A stretch of DNA of 51,722 bases, taken from positions 1 to 51,722 of the forward strand of contig PEAN01000028.1 of the NCBI GenBank assembly GCA_002753735.1, in the 5' to 3' direction. This document shows positions 21,673 to 33,095 of this stretch, in pieces (the first letter of the stretch is position 1; every line of letters begins with the position of its first letter). The notes beneath the pieces were generated by a model, which was given only the letters and a program-made list of their open reading frames with translations, ran no database searches and was not told where the DNA came from. A program made the translations under genes and the position numbers. Source of the DNA: Magnetococcales bacterium DCbin4 (GTDB taxonomy: Bacteria; Pseudomonadota; Magnetococcia; Magnetococcales; UBA8363).

Positions 21673-22812
21673 ATGACTGATACTTATGGCATGGCACAGT
21701 TTAACCATCAACGATTCGAGGCGCTCTGGCTGGCGTTGCGTGAGGAACTGGACACGATCTTCCAGAAGGATGGTTTGGTGGGGGTGATCGAAGCGTTGAA
21801 ACTGCAACAATTGGATGGGGGGTTTATCCAGGACGATCTGAGTGGTGTCATCAAATATCGGATCATTGATGAGGGTGATCCGGGACGTTATTTCATTGTG
21901 CAGTACAATCCCAGGCGTGCCATGCGTTTTTCGGGGGCGGGTCGCCGGATTCCACCTCCGGGGTTGGTCGCCGTCCATGGGGGGTGTTTTTTGTGTCGCG
22001 ACAACATCCGCTGGCAGCAGCGTGGGATCGAGTGTGGTTATGATGTTTTTGTCGATTCTCCAAAGGGTCAGAATCATTATATTATCTGGATGAACCCCTT
22101 TCCCCTGATGCACAACCATGTCACCGTGGCGATGGCCAATCATCGTCCTCAGGCATGGTTGCTATCCAGTATGGAGCGTGGTGGTTTGCTGACCCGCATG
22201 GATGAGATCGGTCATGATTTTTTAAGTTTGTTGGAGCAGATGCCGGGATATGTGGGGTTTTACAATGGTGATGGGGCGGGTGCCACGATTCCCCATCATT
22301 TTCATTTCCAGTTTTTTCGGCGCATGGATGGCCAGGGTGATTTTCCTCTGGAACGGGCTGCGCGTCGTGGTGGGGAGCATGGGTTGGAGGATGGTCCCTG
22401 GCTGGTTCCCGACTATCCCATTACGGCCATCCATTTCCGTGGACCCAAGGAGCGGGTGGAGGCGCAACTGCTTGATGTCGTTGGCACCTGGGAGGGAATG
22501 TTTACCGATCCCCAGGTCGTAACCGCCAATCTGGTCGGTGCCCTGGATCCCAAAAATCGTGAGATTTTCGATCTTTATTTCATCCCTCGGGATAAAACCT
22601 TCAATCGGGGTCCAGGGATGGTGGGGGTGATTGCCGGATTGGAATTGTTGGGCGAGGTGGTTTATTCGACCGAGGAGGAAAAACAATCTTTGGATCGTGG
22701 CCAGGTCAATTATGATTTCGTTGCTCGGATCATTGCTTCGGTGGAGGCACCACGGGCGCGTGAATTGTGGCATGCCTTGCGGGAGCGGTGGGATGGGGGA
22801 GGTGTTGATTGA
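21673..22812 (+). CDS. DUF4922 / HIT-like nucleotidyltransferase-family protein
   Basis: A 379-residue cytoplasmic protein related to the diadenosine-phosphate and GDP-hexose phosphorylases of the HIT superfamily. GGCFLCRDN (a C-x-x-C), NPFPLMHNHVTVAM and PHHFHFQFF (the H-x-H-x-Q catalytic motif) occur in the expected order. It could cleave or transfer a nucleotide on a sugar phosphate, but the substrate is unproven. GAGGAG precedes ATG 21673. A hairpin with a short T-run follows the stop. It is convergent with ftsW. Confidence 0.78.
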   Translation: MTDTYGMAQFNHQRFEALWLALREELDTIFQKDGLVGVIEALKLQQLDGGFIQDDLSGVIKYRIIDEGDPGRYFIVQYNPRRAMRFSGAGRRIPPPGLVAVHGGCFLCRDNIRWQQRGIECGYDVFVDSPKGQNHYIIWMNPFPLMHNHVTVAMANHRPQAWLLSSMERGGLLTRMDEIGHDFLSLLEQMPGYVGFYNGDGAGATIPHHFHFQFFRRMDGQGDFPLERAARRGGEHGLEDGPWLVPDYPITAIHFRGPKERVEAQLLDVVGTWEGMFTDPQVVTANLVGALDPKNREIFDLYFIPRDKTFNRGPGMVGVIAGLELLGEVVYSTEEEKQSLDRGQVNYDFVARIIASVEAPRARELWHALRERWDGGGVD

Positions 22813-22820
22813 AATAAGAG

Positions 22821-22850
22821 GGGGGCTAAAGGGATCGCCCCCATCGTTTT
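22821..22850 (+). terminator. Rho-independent terminator of the DUF4922 gene
   Basis: GGGGGC (22821-22826) pairs with GCCCCC (22837-22842), followed by ATCGTTTT, nine bases after the stop. It looks like a degenerate copy of the dispersed hairpin repeat that now serves this gene. Confidence 0.6.
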
Positions 22851-22921
22851 GACTTAAAAGACAAAGTAAAAAGCGGAGCATATGAAACTTTTTGTTTAAA
22901 GTCAAAATAAAAATCAAAGTC
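22851..22921. repeat. second repeat module, copy 1
   Basis: GACTTAAAAGACAAAGTA, then AAGCGGAGCAT, GAAACTTTTTGTTTAAA and TCAAAGT. A close relative lies at 36964-37030. Both adjoin a GGGGTCT-type hairpin, so the two modules may be parts of one larger element. Confidence 0.7.
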
Positions 22922-22974
22922 TTTACTGTAATACCTTGAATCATTTTTCTTTTAATCGTTCAAGCTGGCACGGT

Positions 22975-24216
22975 CTAACTGGTTCGGGATGAAAATGGCC
23001 TTTTGAACGAAAATCCTGTCTTGTTGAATGAAAACCCTGGCTTATCCGAAACCGGCAAGGTGCGGGAGAAGGCGAGCAATAGACCGATGGCTCCCAGGGT
23101 GACGATGATCGAGGTTCCACCATAACTGACCAAGGGCAAGGTCAACCCCTTCGGTGGCAACAATCCCATCACCACTCCCATGTTGGCCACCGATTGCGCC
23201 CCTAAAAGGACCGCCAGTCCGGTGGAGGCCAGGCGGACAAACCGGTCGTCCGCCATTCGGGCAATATGAAGGGCACGCCAGATCAAAACGGCAAACAACA
23301 GAATGATCAACAGGATCCAGAACAGTCCCAATTCTTCGCCAATGACGGCGAAGATGAAGTCGGTGTGGGATTCAGGGAGATAGAACTGCTTTTGCTGCCC
23401 TTGTCCCAGTCCCGTCCCCGTATAGCCACCGTTGCCGAACGACAACAAGGATTGCACCAACTGGAAATCGCTGTCCAGGGGATCATCCCATGGATCGAGG
23501 AACGAGGTGACCCGGCGGAAACGGTACGGTGCCATGATGACCCCCGCCGCCGCCAGAGGGACTGCGGCCACGACGAGTCCGATGATCCATGACAGCGGGA
23601 TGCCCGAAACAAAAATGATTCCAAAAACGATGGCCGCACTGATCATGGTGGCCCCGAAATCGGGTTCGGCCAACAGCAGGGCTGCACCCATGCCGAAGAG
23701 CATGAACAGGGGGACGATCCCGGCAAAGAAATAGCGCGACCGGGCTGGATTGAGCGCCAGGATATGGGCCATGTACAACGCCAGGATCACCTTGTAGGGT
23801 TCAGAAGGTTGAATGGTGGCAAAACCGATGTTGATCCAGCGCCGTGCGCCACCTCCCTCCAGTCCGACACCGGGGATCAGCGTCACGACCAGGAGCATGA
23901 TGATGATCCAGAATCCCCATTGTCCTGCACGCCGGATCGATGTGATCGATTGGCGACTGATCAATACCAAACCAATGAGTCCGAGCAGGGAAAAAATACC
24001 GTTGCGCAGGGCATAATGGGATGCATTGCCAAAATTGCGCAGGGCAATGGGGGCAGAAGCGGAATACACCATGACCAGACCGATGATCAGGAGGCAAAAG
24101 GCGGCTCCGGCGGTCCACAGGTCCATGGTGCCGACCCGTTGTTTGTCGGCAGAGGGTTCCCAGTTGGGAGGAGGGGCCTTTTTTCCGGCAGATCGGGTGG
24201 AAGGTCTAAAGAGCAT
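22975..24216 (-). CDS. ftsW: cell division SEDS protein FtsW
   Basis: Polytopic glycosyltransferase that polymerises lipid II at the septum with FtsI. About ten membrane helices; ARRWINIGFATIQPSE, the periplasmic loop with FYLPESHTDFIFAVIGEE, and PLVSYGGTSII near the C-terminus are SEDS signatures. I start at ATG 24216, which overlaps the 3' end of murD by eleven bases and has GAGG six bases upstream. A longer frame to 24300 runs inside murD. The soluble N-terminal tail before the first helix is about 30 residues, slightly long. It is the last dcw gene present: murG and the later genes do not follow. Confidence 0.96.
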   Translation of the reverse strand: MLFRPSTRSAGKKAPPPNWEPSADKQRVGTMDLWTAGAAFCLLIIGLVMVYSASAPIALRNFGNASHYALRNGIFSLLGLIGLVLISRQSITSIRRAGQWGFWIIIMLLVVTLIPGVGLEGGGARRWINIGFATIQPSEPYKVILALYMAHILALNPARSRYFFAGIVPLFMLFGMGAALLLAEPDFGATMISAAIVFGIIFVSGIPLSWIIGLVVAAVPLAAAGVIMAPYRFRRVTSFLDPWDDPLDSDFQLVQSLLSFGNGGYTGTGLGQGQQKQFYLPESHTDFIFAVIGEELGLFWILLIILLFAVLIWRALHIARMADDRFVRLASTGLAVLLGAQSVANMGVVMGLLPPKGLTLPLVSYGGTSIIVTLGAIGLLLAFSRTLPVSDKPGFSFNKTGFSFKRPFSSRTS

Positions 24217-25573
24217 GAACCGCCTCGCTGAATTTTTCGCCACGGTCTTCAAAATTTTTGAACATGTCAAATGAAGCACAGGCGGGTGACAGCAGTACAA
24301 TGTCTCCGGGTTGGGCCAGGTTCAAGGAGGTGGCGACCGCTTCCTTCATGGAGCCGGCACGGGCGGTGGGGGCGACGTTTGACAAGACCTGTTCCAGATC
24401 ATTTGCCGCTTCGCCGATGAGTACCGATCCCCGAAGACGTTGACGTGCCGCCTGTTCGAGGGCGGAGAAGTCGGTCTTTTTGGCGCGTCCTCCGGCGATC
24501 AGCACCAGGGGGCGGTCGAAGGAAGCCAGGGATTCAACGACGGCACCCACGTTGGTTCCTTTGGAGTCGTTATAAAAATCAACACCATTGATGGTGCGAA
24601 CCCATTGCATGCGGTGGGGCAGGCCGGGAAATGTTTCCAATACCCGGGCAATGGTTTCCCTGCTGGCGCCCCGGCTCAGGGAGATGGCAGCAGCAGCGGC
24701 GGCGTTGGCGAGGTTGTGTCGTCCCTTGATGCGGATGCGGTTGATTTCCATGATCGGTTGTGGTTGGGGACCACGGTGGTCGATCAACTGGCCATCCTGG
24801 ACATAGACCCCGCCCGGCACCGGTTTTTCGATGGAAAATCCGACGATGACGACGCCCTGCCCGCATGCCGCAGGGCCTGCGGCGGGCCAGAGTCCGGGAT
24901 CATCGGTGTTGATGATGGCCACATCGCCCGGTCGTTGATTGCGGAATACCCGGAGCTTGGCTGCCAGATAATCTTCCAGCCGGGGATAACGGTCCATGTG
25001 ATCGGGGGACAGGTTGAGCAATGCGGCACTGTCGGCGCGAAATTCATGCATGCTTTCCAATTGGAATGAGGAAAGCTCCAGGACATACATGCGGGTTTCC
25101 TCATGGTACAGGGAAAGCGCTGCCTGTCCCAGGTTGCCACCGGTCTGGGTTTGGAAGCCGGGGGCTGCAAGCATTTCCCCGGTCAGGGTGGTCACCGTCG
25201 ATTTGCCGTTGGTTCCGGTGATGGCGACGAACCGGGGTGGGGGATTTTGGTGCTGTACCTCACGGAACAACCATTCACAGTCATTCATGACCGGAGTGCC
25301 GCGCGTGATCAATGAGGCAACTCCCGGATGGGTACGGGGAATGCCGGGGGATAACAGGATCGATTCGCAGTGCCACAGGCGTTGTTCGGGGAACGGACCG
25401 TTCAGAATCTCGACATTGGCCAGGGTATCCACGCCATCCAGGGGAACCGTTCCCTGGTCCCAGGCGATGACCGGGGTTCCACGATCGGAAAGAAAACGGA
25501 CGGCTGCCAGGCCGGAGCGACCCAGGCCCAGCACACCCACCGGACGGGGAGAAGCAGTATGAAGTTTGGTCAT
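24206..25573 (-). CDS. murD: UDP-N-acetylmuramoyl-L-alanine--D-glutamate ligase
   Basis: Adds D-glutamate to UDP-MurNAc-L-Ala in the cytoplasm, using ATP. ITGTNGKSTVTTL is the Mur-ligase P-loop, LELSSFQLE and NLSPDHMDRY are the central-domain blocks, and DFYNDSKGTNVGA lies in the C-terminal substrate-closing domain. GVLGLGRSGLAA is the N-terminal nucleotide-sugar-binding fold. Length 455 is normal. One base separates it from the mraY stop and it overlaps ftsW, so it is in the middle of the operon. Confidence 0.96.
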   Translation of the reverse strand: MTKLHTASPRPVGVLGLGRSGLAAVRFLSDRGTPVIAWDQGTVPLDGVDTLANVEILNGPFPEQRLWHCESILLSPGIPRTHPGVASLITRGTPVMNDCEWLFREVQHQNPPPRFVAITGTNGKSTVTTLTGEMLAAPGFQTQTGGNLGQAALSLYHEETRMYVLELSSFQLESMHEFRADSAALLNLSPDHMDRYPRLEDYLAAKLRVFRNQRPGDVAIINTDDPGLWPAAGPAACGQGVVIVGFSIEKPVPGGVYVQDGQLIDHRGPQPQPIMEINRIRIKGRHNLANAAAAAAISLSRGASRETIARVLETFPGLPHRMQWVRTINGVDFYNDSKGTNVGAVVESLASFDRPLVLIAGGRAKKTDFSALEQAARQRLRGSVLIGEAANDLEQVLSNVAPTARAGSMKEAVATSLNLAQPGDIVLLSPACASFDMFKNFEDRGEKFSEAVHAL

Positions 25574-28047: not shown

Positions 28048-28535
28048 ATTCTACTGTATCATATTCATTAATCAGAGACATTGACATTCAAAAAATTATT
28101 GAAAGAAAAAAGGGGTCTGGGGGATTGCCCCCAGGGTTTTGATTTTGGTTTTGACTTTGTTTTTGATTTTACAGCCCCCACAGGGGGTGTGGGGGACGAA
28201 GTCCCCCTGGTTTTGTGTTTTTCTTTTCCCGAACCCGGGACGCATTTTGAAATCAGAATCAAAACCAACCCCCTGGAGGCAATTTCCCGGATTCATGGGG
28301 AAAAGATGAGACCAAAACCAGGATCAAAAGCAAAACCAGGATCAAAAGCAAAACCAGGATCAAAAGCAAAACCAGGATCAAAAGCAAAACCAGGATCAAA
28401 AGCAAAACCAAAACCTGGGGGACTTCGCCCCCCCCACACCCCCTGTGGGGGCTGTAAAATCAAAACCAAAATCAAAATCAAAATCCTGGGGGCAATCCCC
28501 CAGACCCCTTTTTTCTTTCAATATTTTTATACATA
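28048..28535. repeat. composite palindromic repeat element between murE and murF
   Basis: This 0.5 kb spacer is built from nested inverted copies. The outer arms are the dispersed hairpin repeat, forward with leader at 28048-28149 and reverse at about 28484-28520. Inside are a CAGCCCCCACAGGGGGTGTG block (about 28172-28210) and its inverse at about 28412-28457. In the centre is a five-copy 18-bp tandem repeat. A long frame crosses it on each strand only because the repeats lack stops; I do not call a gene. It interrupts an otherwise tightly overlapping operon. Confidence 0.85.
28315..28404. repeat. 18-bp tandem repeat, five exact units
   Basis: Unit AAACCAGGATCAAAAGCA, five contiguous copies with no spacers, so not a CRISPR array. 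It sits at the centre of the murE-murF composite element. The forward frame would read KPGSKA repeats. Confidence 0.95.
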
Positions 28536-28564: not shown

Positions 28565-30067
28565 TTAGGATGGGCGGGAAAAACCCAGTTCCTTGAGATG
28601 GTGAAGTGCCCATTGGCGATCATCAAAGGGAAGGGTTTGTGCTCCGATGATCTGAACGGTTTCATGCCCTTTGCCGACAATCAATACACAATCCCCCGGT
28701 TGTGCCAATCCAAGGGCATGACCGATGGCCCGGGCACGATCAGGGATTTCTTCAGCCCGGTTGCCGCCACGGATGACACCGCGCAACACGGCGGTACGGA
28801 TTTCCCCGGGCGATTCATTGCGGGGATTGTCGTCGGTGACGATGACCCGGTGGGCCAACCGTCCAGCCAGCTCTCCCATGATGGGACGTTTGGCGGCATC
28901 CCGGTTGCCGCCACACCCGAAGACCAGGATGATCTGCCCTTGAAGCGCCATCGCCCCGACGGTTTCCAATAAATTTTTCAAAGCATCGGGGGTATGGGCA
29001 TAATCGACGAAAACACTGAAGGGTTGACCTCGGTTGACCGGTTCCATCCGTCCTGGCTGGGGGGTGAAGCGGGCCAGTCCCCGGGCAATCGATTCCAGGC
29101 TGGCCCCCAGCCGTCCTGCCAGGGCGGCGGCAGCGACTGCATTGGCAATGTTGAAGGCGCCGCAGACCGGCAGACGGATCGCCCGGGATCCCTGGGGGGT
29201 GGCGAGGAGAAAATGACTCGCATCCCAATCCATCCGGATCTCTTTGGCCCGATAATCGCCCCGTGCCGGTGCCCGTTGCAGGGTGAATCCCAACACTTCG
29301 GTATGAGGTGCTGCCATGCGTGCCAGTTCGCGGCCATGGGGGTCGTCCAGGTTGATGATGGAAAACCGGGGCGGGCGGTCGAGGAACAGGCGGGCCTTGG
29401 CGGTAAAATAGGCATCGACATCACCATGATAATCCAGGTGATCATGGCTCAGATTGGTGAACACGGCGCACTGCCAGGCGATGGCTTCGGTCCGCTGTTG
29501 TTGCAGGGCGTGGGAGGAAACTTCCATCACCACTGTCCGGCATTGTGCCTGCGCCATCCGTGCCAGCAAGGCGTGCAGGGTGGGTGCATCGGGCGTCGTC
29601 ATGCCGGTTTCCGCCGTCATCCCCGGGGCGCGGACCCCCGTCGTTCCGATGACTCCGGTGGCGATGCCCTCCTGCCTGAGGATCGTTTCGGTCATGGCGG
29701 CTACGGTGGTCTTGCCGTTGGTACCGGTAATGGCTGCCATGGCCATGCTGCGGCAGGGATGGCCATGAAAGGCGGAGGAGAGACGTGATAATGCCTTGGC
29801 GGGGTCGGGATGGATCAAATGCGCAAGCGTTGGGGGAAGTCGGGTCTCCCCCTGATCCAGAATGGCCGCTGCCTGCCGCCGCATCGCATCTTCAATGAAC
29901 AGCGTCCCGCGGGAACGCCATCCGGAAAGGGCCGCAAACAGATGCCCGGGACGGATCTGGCGCGAATCACACACCAGGCCGGAAATCTCGCGATCACTTC
30001 CTTCGTAACGCAATCCTTCAAGGCCTGAAAGTTCGATCAATCTGGAAACATGGATCAAAGGGGTCAT
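28565..30067 (-). CDS. murE: UDP-N-acetylmuramoyl-L-alanyl-D-glutamate--2,6-diaminopimelate ligase
   Basis: Adds meso-diaminopimelate to the growing peptidoglycan peptide. ITGTNGKTTVAAM is the ATP loop, TTPDAPTLHALLARM and VSSHALQQQR are substrate blocks, and DDNPRNESPGE carries the D-N-P-R motif that selects diaminopimelate over lysine, so the wall is probably the standard Gram-negative type. The start ATG overlaps the ftsI stop by four bases (ATGA). The stop is followed by the composite repeat, which could uncouple or partly terminate transcription before murF. Confidence 0.96.
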   Translation of the reverse strand: MTPLIHVSRLIELSGLEGLRYEGSDREISGLVCDSRQIRPGHLFAALSGWRSRGTLFIEDAMRRQAAAILDQGETRLPPTLAHLIHPDPAKALSRLSSAFHGHPCRSMAMAAITGTNGKTTVAAMTETILRQEGIATGVIGTTGVRAPGMTAETGMTTPDAPTLHALLARMAQAQCRTVVMEVSSHALQQQRTEAIAWQCAVFTNLSHDHLDYHGDVDAYFTAKARLFLDRPPRFSIINLDDPHGRELARMAAPHTEVLGFTLQRAPARGDYRAKEIRMDWDASHFLLATPQGSRAIRLPVCGAFNIANAVAAAALAGRLGASLESIARGLARFTPQPGRMEPVNRGQPFSVFVDYAHTPDALKNLLETVGAMALQGQIILVFGCGGNRDAAKRPIMGELAGRLAHRVIVTDDNPRNESPGEIRTAVLRGVIRGGNRAEEIPDRARAIGHALGLAQPGDCVLIVGKGHETVQIIGAQTLPFDDRQWALHHLKELGFSRPS

Positions 30068-32817
30068 TGCATGATCAACCGTGGCGGCCCTTCTTTTGGG
30101 GTTTCCAAGGATTTGACGACACCATACCCCTGGATCTGGGGCACGATTCCCTGTTGGGTCAAAATTTCCAATGCCCGGCTGAGACTGACATTTTCGATGA
30201 TATCGTTGGCCGGGGGCGGATCCATCAGGTCGGGCAATGGGGGGGGGGTATGGGTGTCGGGGAAAATGGAGAGCCGTGGCAGGATTTCCTGGGCGATCTC
30301 CTTAAACACCGGGGCGGCCACCTTGCCGCCATAATAAATGCCGGAGGGTTCATCGATACTGACAAAAATGACCACCTTGGGCTTTTCGACCGGAATGAAC
30401 CCGACAAAAGAGGCATAATAGCGTCCACGAACATACCCCTGACCGGGAATCGCCTTGCGGGCGGTTCCGGTTTTCCCTCCCACCTGATATCCATCCACCG
30501 CCGCTTCGATGGCGGTACCCTCGGGGGTGACCACCGATTGCAGGATGGTTCGTAGTTTCTTTGAGGTCTCCTCGCTGATGACTCGATGCGGGGCATGTTG
30601 TTTGTGCAGGGGAACAACGACCCCATCGACGACCTTCCCCCGGATCAGCGTGGGTGGATAAAAAATGCCACCGTTGATGGATGCACCGAAGGCGGCGGCG
30701 ATATGCAATGGGGTCGTGGTGATTCCGTACCCGTAGGAACGGTTGGCCACACCCACTTTCTGATAATGGGTGATGTCGGGAATCGATCCACCGGGATCGG
30801 AGGGGAGTTCAACTCCGGTAGGGGCGCCAAAACCATACAAACGAATGAATTTCTCCAAATTTTTGTGTCCCAGTTCCAGGCCGATCTTGGCGGCTCCGAC
30901 GTTGGAACTGCGTTGCAACACCTGGCTGACGGTATGATAACGTTCACCACGGTGAAAGTCGGTGATGATCCGGTCGGCAACCCGGGTTTTTCCATATTCG
31001 ATGTCGATGACGGTGTTGGGTGTGACCGTTCCCTCTTCCAGGGCGGCGGCGATGGTGAATACCTTGAAGGTCGATCCCGGTTCAAACAGGTCGGTGACGG
31101 CCCGGTTGCGGCGGTCGTTGGATTTGCTTTGGGCCAGATTGTTCGGGTTGAAGCTGGGCTGGTTGACCATGGCGAGAATCTCGCCATTGTCCGGGTTCAG
31201 CACCACCGCCATCCCCGCCTTGGCCTGGCTGGCCTGGACCCCTTTGAGCAGGGCACGGTAGGCGATATATTGAATCGTGGTGTCGATGGTGATGGCCAGG
31301 TCACTGCCTGGATGGGGTTCGGTCACCGTCTTGACCATCGGCATGGGGCGTCCCAACCGGTCATGGCTGATGACCTGGGCACCGTTGATGCCGTGGAGTT
31401 CGTCCTCAAATGACCGTTCCAGCCCTTCACGCCCCCGTCCTTCATGATTGACGAATCCTAAAATGTGCCCCGTGATTTCACCCATGGTATAGAAACGGCG
31501 GCTTTCCGGAATGAAAAACAGGGCGGCGTGGTCCAGGTTACGAATCTTTCTGGCGGTTTCCGGCGACAATTGCCGTTTGAGAATCGGGTAACTTCCCGGT
31601 TTGAACGATTGCAGCCGACTGCGCAATTCCGATTCCGGCACGTTGATGATCGGTGCCAGGTTGCGCGCCAGTTGATAGCGATCTTCAACCTGGTCGATGT
31701 CAACCGACAACGAGTGCATCGGCAGACTGATGGCCAGGGTCCGTCCATTCCGGTCCAGAATCCGACCACGGTTGGCGGTCATGACGATCTTCTTTTTGTG
31801 TTGATTGAGTGCCCGTTGCTTCAACGAGTCGGCCTGAATGATCGTCAAATCGACCGCGCGCAGACTCAGGACGAAAAATGCCAGCATGAACACCCCGGAC
31901 AAAAACATGAGCCGGGATTGGGGGTTGGTTTTGTCTACATAGGGGGCATTGGGGGTGCCGACCGAGGGGACGCGTAAAAAGGATCGGCGCGGCGCCGTCC
32001 TGCTCTTGTCGTTGCGGGCGAACAACCGTTTCACCAGCACAGGGATTCCCCGCGACACCGGGGGTGATGCCGGCATCCGGGGCAATGGTGCGCGTTGCGG
32101 CGTACGCTGTGGCGAAGTCAACAGCCGTTCGATCAGGGGTGGGGTGTCCCTTTTGACCGTGGCGACACTTTCTCGTGGTGGTGGGGCGACCGGAGCCCGG
32201 GGTGCCGGGGGGCGTGGTGCTGAAGGTGGGGATTTCGGAACCGCCTGCGCAACCTTCTTGAACAGGCGTTGCATCAAGGGCAACCCTTGCCGGCCTCCTG
32301 CAACAGAACGTTCCCGCGGGGCGGAGGGTGCAACCGGTGGTGTCGGTGCCGGGGATGCGCCCCTTTTGAACAGCCGTTCCAACAGCGGTTTCTTTTGTCG
32401 TTGCGACGTGAAAACACGTCCCCTGGAGGGGTCCATTCCCGGGGGGACCGACGGCGCCGACGGCTCGGGATGCCGGGTGGGAGCCGACCTCTGGCCGGGT
32501 AAATGTTGCGGTATGCCCTCAAGCAACCGGCTGAACATTGATCTTTGTTCCCGCTGGGGCGCGGGTTTATGCTCCCTGGGGGGTGGGGTTCGGGTGACGT
32601 TGGGTTGACGTGGCTGTCCCGATGGCAGAATGGCACCGAGCAACCTTTTGATCAACGGTACTGTCTTCCGGGTCACCGATACCGCACCGGAAATCCGGTT
32701 CTGCGTCTGTTGCCATGGTTTTCTCTTGGCAACCGCACCGCGCTGGCGTTTGACGGGCGATTTGCGTTCGGGGGGATCGGGACGGTGCCGGTTCTGACGC
32801 AATATGGCCATCTTCAT
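30064..32817 (-). CDS. ftsI: septal peptidoglycan transpeptidase FtsI (PBP3) with a long repeated N-terminal extension
   Basis: Cross-links septal peptidoglycan; class B penicillin-binding protein. Membrane helix at about 302-321, dimerisation/pedestal region from about 345 (ANRGRILDRNG). Catalytic motifs are S582-T-F-K585, S637-S-N639 and K782-T-G-T785. A PASTA-like tail follows from about 858. The family is usually near 580-650 residues; this protein is 917. The first 300, cytoplasmic, are rich in Pro, Arg, Lys and Ser. They carry six PLxxRL[LF]-like motifs, near residues 54, 94, 144, 180, 227 and 259. The start overlaps the ftsL stop as ATGA, supporting the long form. Confidence 0.94.
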   Translation of the reverse strand: MKMAILRQNRHRPDPPERKSPVKRQRGAVAKRKPWQQTQNRISGAVSVTRKTVPLIKRLLGAILPSGQPRQPNVTRTPPPREHKPAPQREQRSMFSRLLEGIPQHLPGQRSAPTRHPEPSAPSVPPGMDPSRGRVFTSQRQKKPLLERLFKRGASPAPTPPVAPSAPRERSVAGGRQGLPLMQRLFKKVAQAVPKSPPSAPRPPAPRAPVAPPPRESVATVKRDTPPLIERLLTSPQRTPQRAPLPRMPASPPVSRGIPVLVKRLFARNDKSRTAPRRSFLRVPSVGTPNAPYVDKTNPQSRLMFLSGVFMLAFFVLSLRAVDLTIIQADSLKQRALNQHKKKIVMTANRGRILDRNGRTLAISLPMHSLSVDIDQVEDRYQLARNLAPIINVPESELRSRLQSFKPGSYPILKRQLSPETARKIRNLDHAALFFIPESRRFYTMGEITGHILGFVNHEGRGREGLERSFEDELHGINGAQVISHDRLGRPMPMVKTVTEPHPGSDLAITIDTTIQYIAYRALLKGVQASQAKAGMAVVLNPDNGEILAMVNQPSFNPNNLAQSKSNDRRNRAVTDLFEPGSTFKVFTIAAALEEGTVTPNTVIDIEYGKTRVADRIITDFHRGERYHTVSQVLQRSSNVGAAKIGLELGHKNLEKFIRLYGFGAPTGVELPSDPGGSIPDITHYQKVGVANRSYGYGITTTPLHIAAAFGASINGGIFYPPTLIRGKVVDGVVVPLHKQHAPHRVISEETSKKLRTILQSVVTPEGTAIEAAVDGYQVGGKTGTARKAIPGQGYVRGRYYASFVGFIPVEKPKVVIFVSIDEPSGIYYGGKVAAPVFKEIAQEILPRLSIFPDTHTPPPLPDLMDPPPANDIIENVSLSRALEILTQQGIVPQIQGYGVVKSLETPKEGPPRLIMQ

Positions 32818-33095
32818 TCACCCAATGGAAGCCATTGGTCATGACGCAATGGCTTCATGCCCAGTTCTTCGCGGGCACGGCGTTCGACGGTATTGAGATC
32901 GGTTCGGGTCACCAGCTCCAGTTTGAGTTCCCGTTCTTTGTCCAAATGCTGCAAAAGCAGTTTCTCCTCGTTGCGTAGCTCTCGGTGGCTTTCCAGCATC
33001 CAGGTTCTCGATGTGACCGTGATGGCGGCCGTCAGTACCAGCAGCAGGACCAGGAATACGGGAATGAAGGTGTCCAGTTTCATGGCATCGTCCAT
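32814..33095 (-). CDS. ftsL: cell division protein FtsL
   Basis: Small bitopic divisome protein (93 residues) that bridges FtsB/FtsQ to FtsW-FtsI. A single membrane helix near residues 10-28 (IPVFLVLLLVLTAAITVTS) is followed by a charged coiled-coil (HRELRNEEKLLLQHLDKERELKLE) and an RREELGM-type C-terminal block. Sequence identity in this family is low; position between rsmH and ftsI settles the call. Overlaps rsmH by one base and ftsI by four. Confidence 0.9.
   Translation of the reverse strand: MDDAMKLDTFIPVFLVLLLVLTAAITVTSRTWMLESHRELRNEEKLLLQHLDKERELKLELVTRTDLNTVERRAREELGMKPLRHDQWLPLGE

Follow-up and report, generated by a model that had tools for sequence, protein, structure and literature searches.

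An essential and broadly conserved division protein, FtsI is generally regarded as having only a short, minor tail on its cytoplasmic side. In E. coli this tail comprises 18–23 residues (PMC7840769, PMC4038516), which bears out the statement of the first-pass annotation that cytoplasmic tails of FtsI are usually short. In the window analysed here, a stretch of 51,722 nucleotides from Magnetococcales bacterium DCbin4 (contig PEAN01000028.1), the ftsI gene encodes an ordinary division penicillin-binding protein with about 300 extra cytoplasmic residues before the sole membrane helix.

The ftsI locus and its product

The ftsI product possesses both expected Pfam domains, PF03717 (3e-19) and PF00905 (2e-74), and both lie after residue 345. 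The active-site motifs STFK, SSN and KTG, corresponding to SxxK, SxN and KTG, are all found. The sequence before residue 345 matches no Pfam family and likewise no NCBIfam family, and a PDB search with the tail returned no meaningful relative. For these reasons the protein is read as an ordinary penicillin-binding protein with an added tail. The complete protein scores below every NCBIfam equivalog cut-off. An Rfam search of the window gave 0 matches, and no plasmid records were found. The open reading frame had been annotated in the first pass at exactly 30064–32817, the strand being minus (32817 to 30064). The sole membrane helix, which had been placed at residues 302–321, is confirmed at about 302–323, with the FtsI domains after it.

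The gene order is mraW-ftsL-ftsI-murE with overlapping ends, ftsI lying between ftsL and murE as in the dcw cluster, and ftsW is also in the window. In this genome the division cluster is split (window 21673–24300, L159, L161), with mraW to ftsW in the window and murC-murB-ddl-ftsQ-ftsA-ftsZ on another contig. A non-cluster gene follows ftsW. In genome G018, ftsI and ftsZ are 14 kb apart on one contig. Additionally, an element with inverted ends (GAAAAAAGGGGTCTGGGGGATTGCCCCCAGG) lies between murE and murF at 28080–28530 and contains an 18-bp unit repeated 5.4 times; an end-like sequence occurs again at 1856–1882.

Table 1. Positions in the window of ftsI, its neighbour ftsL and the regions of the FtsI protein
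Feature	Position	Strand	Basis or remark
ftsI (division-specific class B penicillin-binding protein, 917 aa)	30064..32817	-	ORF, Pfam
ftsL	32814..33095	-	stop overlaps ftsI start (ATGA)
PBP dimerisation domain, PF03717	31342..31779	-	Pfam
Transpeptidase domain, PF00905, with STFK, SSN, KTG	30292..31215	-	Pfam and motifs
Single transmembrane helix, residues ~302-323	31849..31914	-	alignment, AlphaFold2
Cytoplasmic N-terminal extension, residues 1-301	31915..32817	-	Arg/Pro-rich, mostly predicted disordered
Most conserved tail block, residues 3-30	32728..32811	-	alignment across genus
Motif 1 PLIKRLL, residues 54-60	32638..32658	-	predicted helix
Motif 2 SMFSRLL, residues 93-99	32521..32541	-	predicted helix
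Motif 3 PLLERLF, residues 144-150	32368..32388	-	predicted helix
Motif 4 PLMQRLF, residues 180-186	32260..32280	-	predicted helix
Motif 5 PLIERLL, residues 227-233	32119..32139	-	predicted helix
Motif 6 VLVKRLF, residues 260-266	32020..32040	-	predicted helix, weakly amphipathic

Coding status and distribution of the tail

The ATG of the window ftsI overlaps the ftsL stop, and the starts in relatives fall within a few bases of that stop, and in all seven genomes of the genus where the tail start can be read it abuts ftsL. As the start common to the relatives corresponds to Met3 of the window reading frame, translation may truly begin at residue 1 or at residue 3. The dN/dS of the tail is 0.07 in the closest pair (L003/L004) and 0.26 for L005/L006. 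All pairs other than the closest span 0.18–0.31, compared with 0.05–0.09 in the rest of the protein, the distant pairs being near synonymous saturation. Within the tail, conservation is highest in a 28-residue N-terminal block, present in most members as MAxLRQNRHRPDPPERKSxxKRQRGAV, followed by the motifs described below and then by the linkers, which diverge between members and vary in length. The motif columns are more conserved than random tail blocks (permutation p 0.012). By these measures, the tail in this genus is real coded protein under purifying selection. The first-pass annotation had proposed a comparison with related genomes, in which the relatives might have started at the membrane helix with no such motifs; instead, the relatives within the genus carry both the tail and its motifs.

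The ftsI locus was found in all eight genomes of the genus, two of them incomplete, with G002 cut by contig ends and G007 broken in frame downstream of the tail. Members of the genus are uncultured, and the named records are Magnetococcales metagenome bins. In the seven genomes with a readable tail start, the tail before YVDK is 256–495 residues long. Other Magnetococcales possess basic tails of about 47–103 residues without the array. Two other groups (L012–L018 and L155) have long tails of unrelated sequence. In genus g17 (family f7) the tails are about 260–290 residues; the same array was sought there and rejected because the sequence differs and the predicted model differs as well, with longer helices and a hairpin. 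In G010 (family f4) the tail is about 310 residues with added hydrophobic stretches, which could be membrane helices. Among the matches listed for a sample of the phylum, FtsI frames outside the order are mostly 560–720 codons, the longest being 791, although these lengths run from stop to stop and serve only as a guide; no comparable tail was found among these matches. Judged from sequence, the tail with its helix array is a genus-specific extension of FtsI. In one metagenome bin (L038 and L156) the ftsI frame is broken and the region of the SxxK active site lacks about 27 residues, which is probably an assembly fault.

Outside the genus, several of the order's short basic tails contain, by eye, one motif-like stretch, for example GGLFTKLFPAP, GFLSRLPNPL or GLLGFLKSQRK. 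From these single similar stretches, the array may be an expansion.

The motif array and its predicted helices

The first-pass annotation described six PLxxRL[LF] motifs before the membrane helix. The array itself stands, with six copies under a looser pattern, while the exact pattern matches only four of the six and SMFSRLL and VLVKRLF are variants. The four strict matches in the window tail compare with a shuffle mean of 0.002, and the six looser matches with a mean of 0.05, a number reached in 0 of 5000 shuffles. Other open reading frames of the window longer than 200 amino acids have at most two matches each. When one fixed pattern was applied to four relatives, each had 3–5 matches against shuffle means of 0.03–0.05, and 0 of 3000 shuffles equalled them. 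Across the genus the consensus is [SP][LF][LIF]xRL[LF]. Among 29 copies taken from five different members, 22 have Arg at position 5 and 26 have Leu at position 6; Ser or Pro stands at position 1 in 26 copies and an acidic residue at position 4 in 5. These copies were aligned or hand-picked, so the logo partly reflects selection by eye, from which the fixed-pattern counts are free. The identity of the hydrophobic residues drifts while the pattern stays. Motif 5 is the best conserved across the genus and motif 4 the least, being missing in L003/L004. Four of the window copies, checked for recent tandem duplication, are 71–86% alike at the DNA level. A second protein with the same array was sought in the window genome and rejected, as it gave weak matches only (E ~0.01 or worse).

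The tail is strongly basic, with a net charge of +45 and 19% Pro in the window and net charges of +31 to +46 in the genus. An AlphaFold2 model from seven members of the genus, numbered with an offset of two residues from the window reading frame, has short helices at model residues 53–61, 89–98, 143–148, 179–188, 226–231 and 258–267, plus the long membrane helix. After correction for the offset, each of the six short helices lies on one motif, and the tail has no further helix. The mean pLDDT outside the membrane region is 53 and the pTM is 0.22, giving low confidence to the overall arrangement; such a low pLDDT is expected of a disordered tail, and the helices stay predictions. The motifs also have the character of amphipathic helices with a basic flank, motif 6 weakly so. 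When each copy was compared with shuffled versions of itself, the amphipathic moment reached p<0.1 in 22 of the 29 copies, and the combined p of ~5e-13 is indicative only, as the copies are related to one another. The strongest moments in the window tail fall on the motifs (0.48–0.67), and the same computation gave 0.55 for the MinD helix and 0.61 for the FtsA helix of E. coli.

The motifs appear to most resemble the membrane-targeting helix of the genus's own FtsA. In the genus, the FtsA C-terminus reads VFQRLVDG[IF][KR]NAF or close to it, and in most other families it is close to VFQRMREWFGEIF. When the core of the genus FtsA helix (VFQRLVDGI) is used as a profile, it finds the motifs in four of five tails better than nearly all shuffles, and in three of these (the window, L005 and L038) better than 300 of 300; it is weaker in L002 and is not significant in L003, where 50 of 300 shuffles are as good. 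Any amphipathic pattern would beat shuffles to some degree, however, and this could alone explain the likeness. A profile of FtsA built outside the genus fits the FtsI motifs weakly. As an observation on FtsA itself, its helix is of the VFQRLVDGI type without Trp in the genus and of the VFQRMREWF type in the rest of the order (L117, L119–L121, L124, L125, L127, L128). Based on this change, membrane tethering may be partly redistributed between FtsA and FtsI in the genus.

Candidate functions and known systems

Taken together, these features suggest that the tail helices probably hold the enzyme at the division site, against either the membrane or a partner. We put the chance that the tail binds the anionic inner membrane multivalently at about even. 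Each motif would be a membrane-targeting helix like those of FtsA, MinD and MreB, though a weak one, and helices and basic linkers together would make the tail lie flat against the anionic inner leaflet, close around the membrane helix. Such multivalent contact would slow the diffusion of FtsI and favour the cardiolipin-rich, curved septal membrane, confining the septal synthase to the division site. Some helices may switch between lipid and a divisome partner. The one-to-one match of helices and motifs, the moments, the net charge and the genus FtsA profile argue for membrane binding, as does the retention of the pattern while its hydrophobic residues drift. Known proteins are consistent with the individual steps. 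Two tandem helices of MreB bring GFP fully to the membrane while a single helix does so slightly (PMC3163269), indicating that weak helices gain effect in tandem. Mycobacterial FtsK has a basic disordered extension that binds the lipids cardiolipin and phosphatidic acid and thereby keeps FtsK confined to the septum (PMC13277299), an example of a divisome protein restricted in place through lipid binding by such a tail. Additionally, FtsZ end-tracking requires slow diffusion of FtsI in a model (PMC7840769), which offers a possible purpose for the tail. The whole path that leads from an amphipathic helix through membrane binding to slower diffusion is one that we infer, and it is rather unlikely, in our estimate, that an array of FtsA-like membrane helices sets both FtsI diffusion and septal confinement in the genus. 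Against membrane binding, the Arg at position 5 and the acidic residue at position 4 in some copies seem more specific than lipid binding needs, although hhQR is likewise the reading of FtsA helices in the order. FtsI is already anchored by a transmembrane helix, and the need for extra anchoring is not obvious. The weak fit of the non-genus FtsA profile and the lack of significance of the genus FtsA profile in L003 also count against it.

That same Arg at a fixed position, together with the conserved block at the N-terminus, leaves protein docking as a possible though less probable explanation. Here the motif helices would bind a groove on a cytoplasmic divisome or shape protein, such as FtsA, FtsZ, a protein of the Zap group or a scaffold specific to the genus, and the number of copies would give avidity along a filament. 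The fixed Arg5 and Leu6, the Ser/Pro helix cap and the conservation of motif columns above random tail blocks all fit such binding, and the N-terminal block fits a specific partner. In M. tuberculosis FtsQ, a single helix of the disordered tail attaches to acidic lipids as well as to the GTPase domain of FtsZ (PMC10036325). However, a profile built on the C-terminal peptide of FtsZ (DVPTFLRRQ-like), tried as a candidate for mimicry, misses the motifs in the window, where 205 of 300 shuffles are as good (L002 and L003 are marginal), and FtsZ, FtsQ and FtsL look ordinary in length and termini. The first-pass annotation had proposed a multivalent docking array for a cytoplasmic divisome or cell-shape partner; that the tail is disordered, cytoplasmic and bears a conserved multivalent array is upheld, while docking becomes one of two good readings. 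The copies, as short basic amphipathic helices, resemble membrane-targeting helices at least as closely. Membrane binding is somewhat favoured over docking, and one helix could do both.

A mutual binding of motifs, by which FtsI tails would cluster or condense at the septum, is decidedly unlikely. Although hydrophobic stickers alternate regularly with Arg/Pro-rich spacers, short isolated helices self-associate weakly, and the low pTM gives little confidence in the overall arrangement of the model. Binding of DNA or RNA by the basic tail, as a sensor of the nucleoid at the septum, is highly improbable. The net charge of about +45 would suit it, and another division cue may exist because true MinD exceeds the family cut-off in only one of 21 Magnetococcales genomes (G014, L131), most of the order seeming to be without a classical Min system. 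Nevertheless, nucleic-acid binding leaves the conserved hydrophobic motifs unexplained, and in mycobacteria the basic extension of FtsK showed no DNA binding (PMC13277299). Finally, there is very little chance of a mis-called start or of low-complexity drift without function, a reading that the divergent linkers of variable length might invite but that is already contradicted by the start abutting ftsL, the tail dN/dS of 0.07–0.31 and the conserved block and motifs.

Searches of the open-access literature found no report of an FtsI whose cytoplasmic tail is long and carries helices, and such a helix array on FtsI appears to be previously undescribed. A multivalent tail conserved in this way would provide a natural experiment on how FtsI movement and septal confinement are controlled by its contacts in the cytoplasm or at the membrane, within a group whose true MinD mostly goes undetected. 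The protein resembles E. coli FtsI (PBP3) in its place after ftsL, single membrane helix, PBP dimerisation and transpeptidase domains and active-site motifs. In contrast to the short E. coli tail, that of the genus has about 300 residues with a helix array. The motifs share with the helices of FtsA, MinD and MreB a short, basic, amphipathic character, the core hh(Q/K)RLh and moments in the same range. Those helices, however, are terminal and sit on soluble polymerising or dimerising proteins, whereas about six internal copies are carried by a membrane-spanning protein here. Like the mycobacterial FtsK extension, the tail is lineage-specific, positively charged, disordered and cytoplasmic on a membrane divisome protein, but the protein and the lineage are different. 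The M. tuberculosis FtsQ tail (PMC10036325) likewise belongs to a bitopic divisome protein, is disordered and bears an Arg-rich helix. This tail has one 29-residue Arg/Ala helix, while FtsI of the genus has about six Leu/Phe helices of 7–10 residues.
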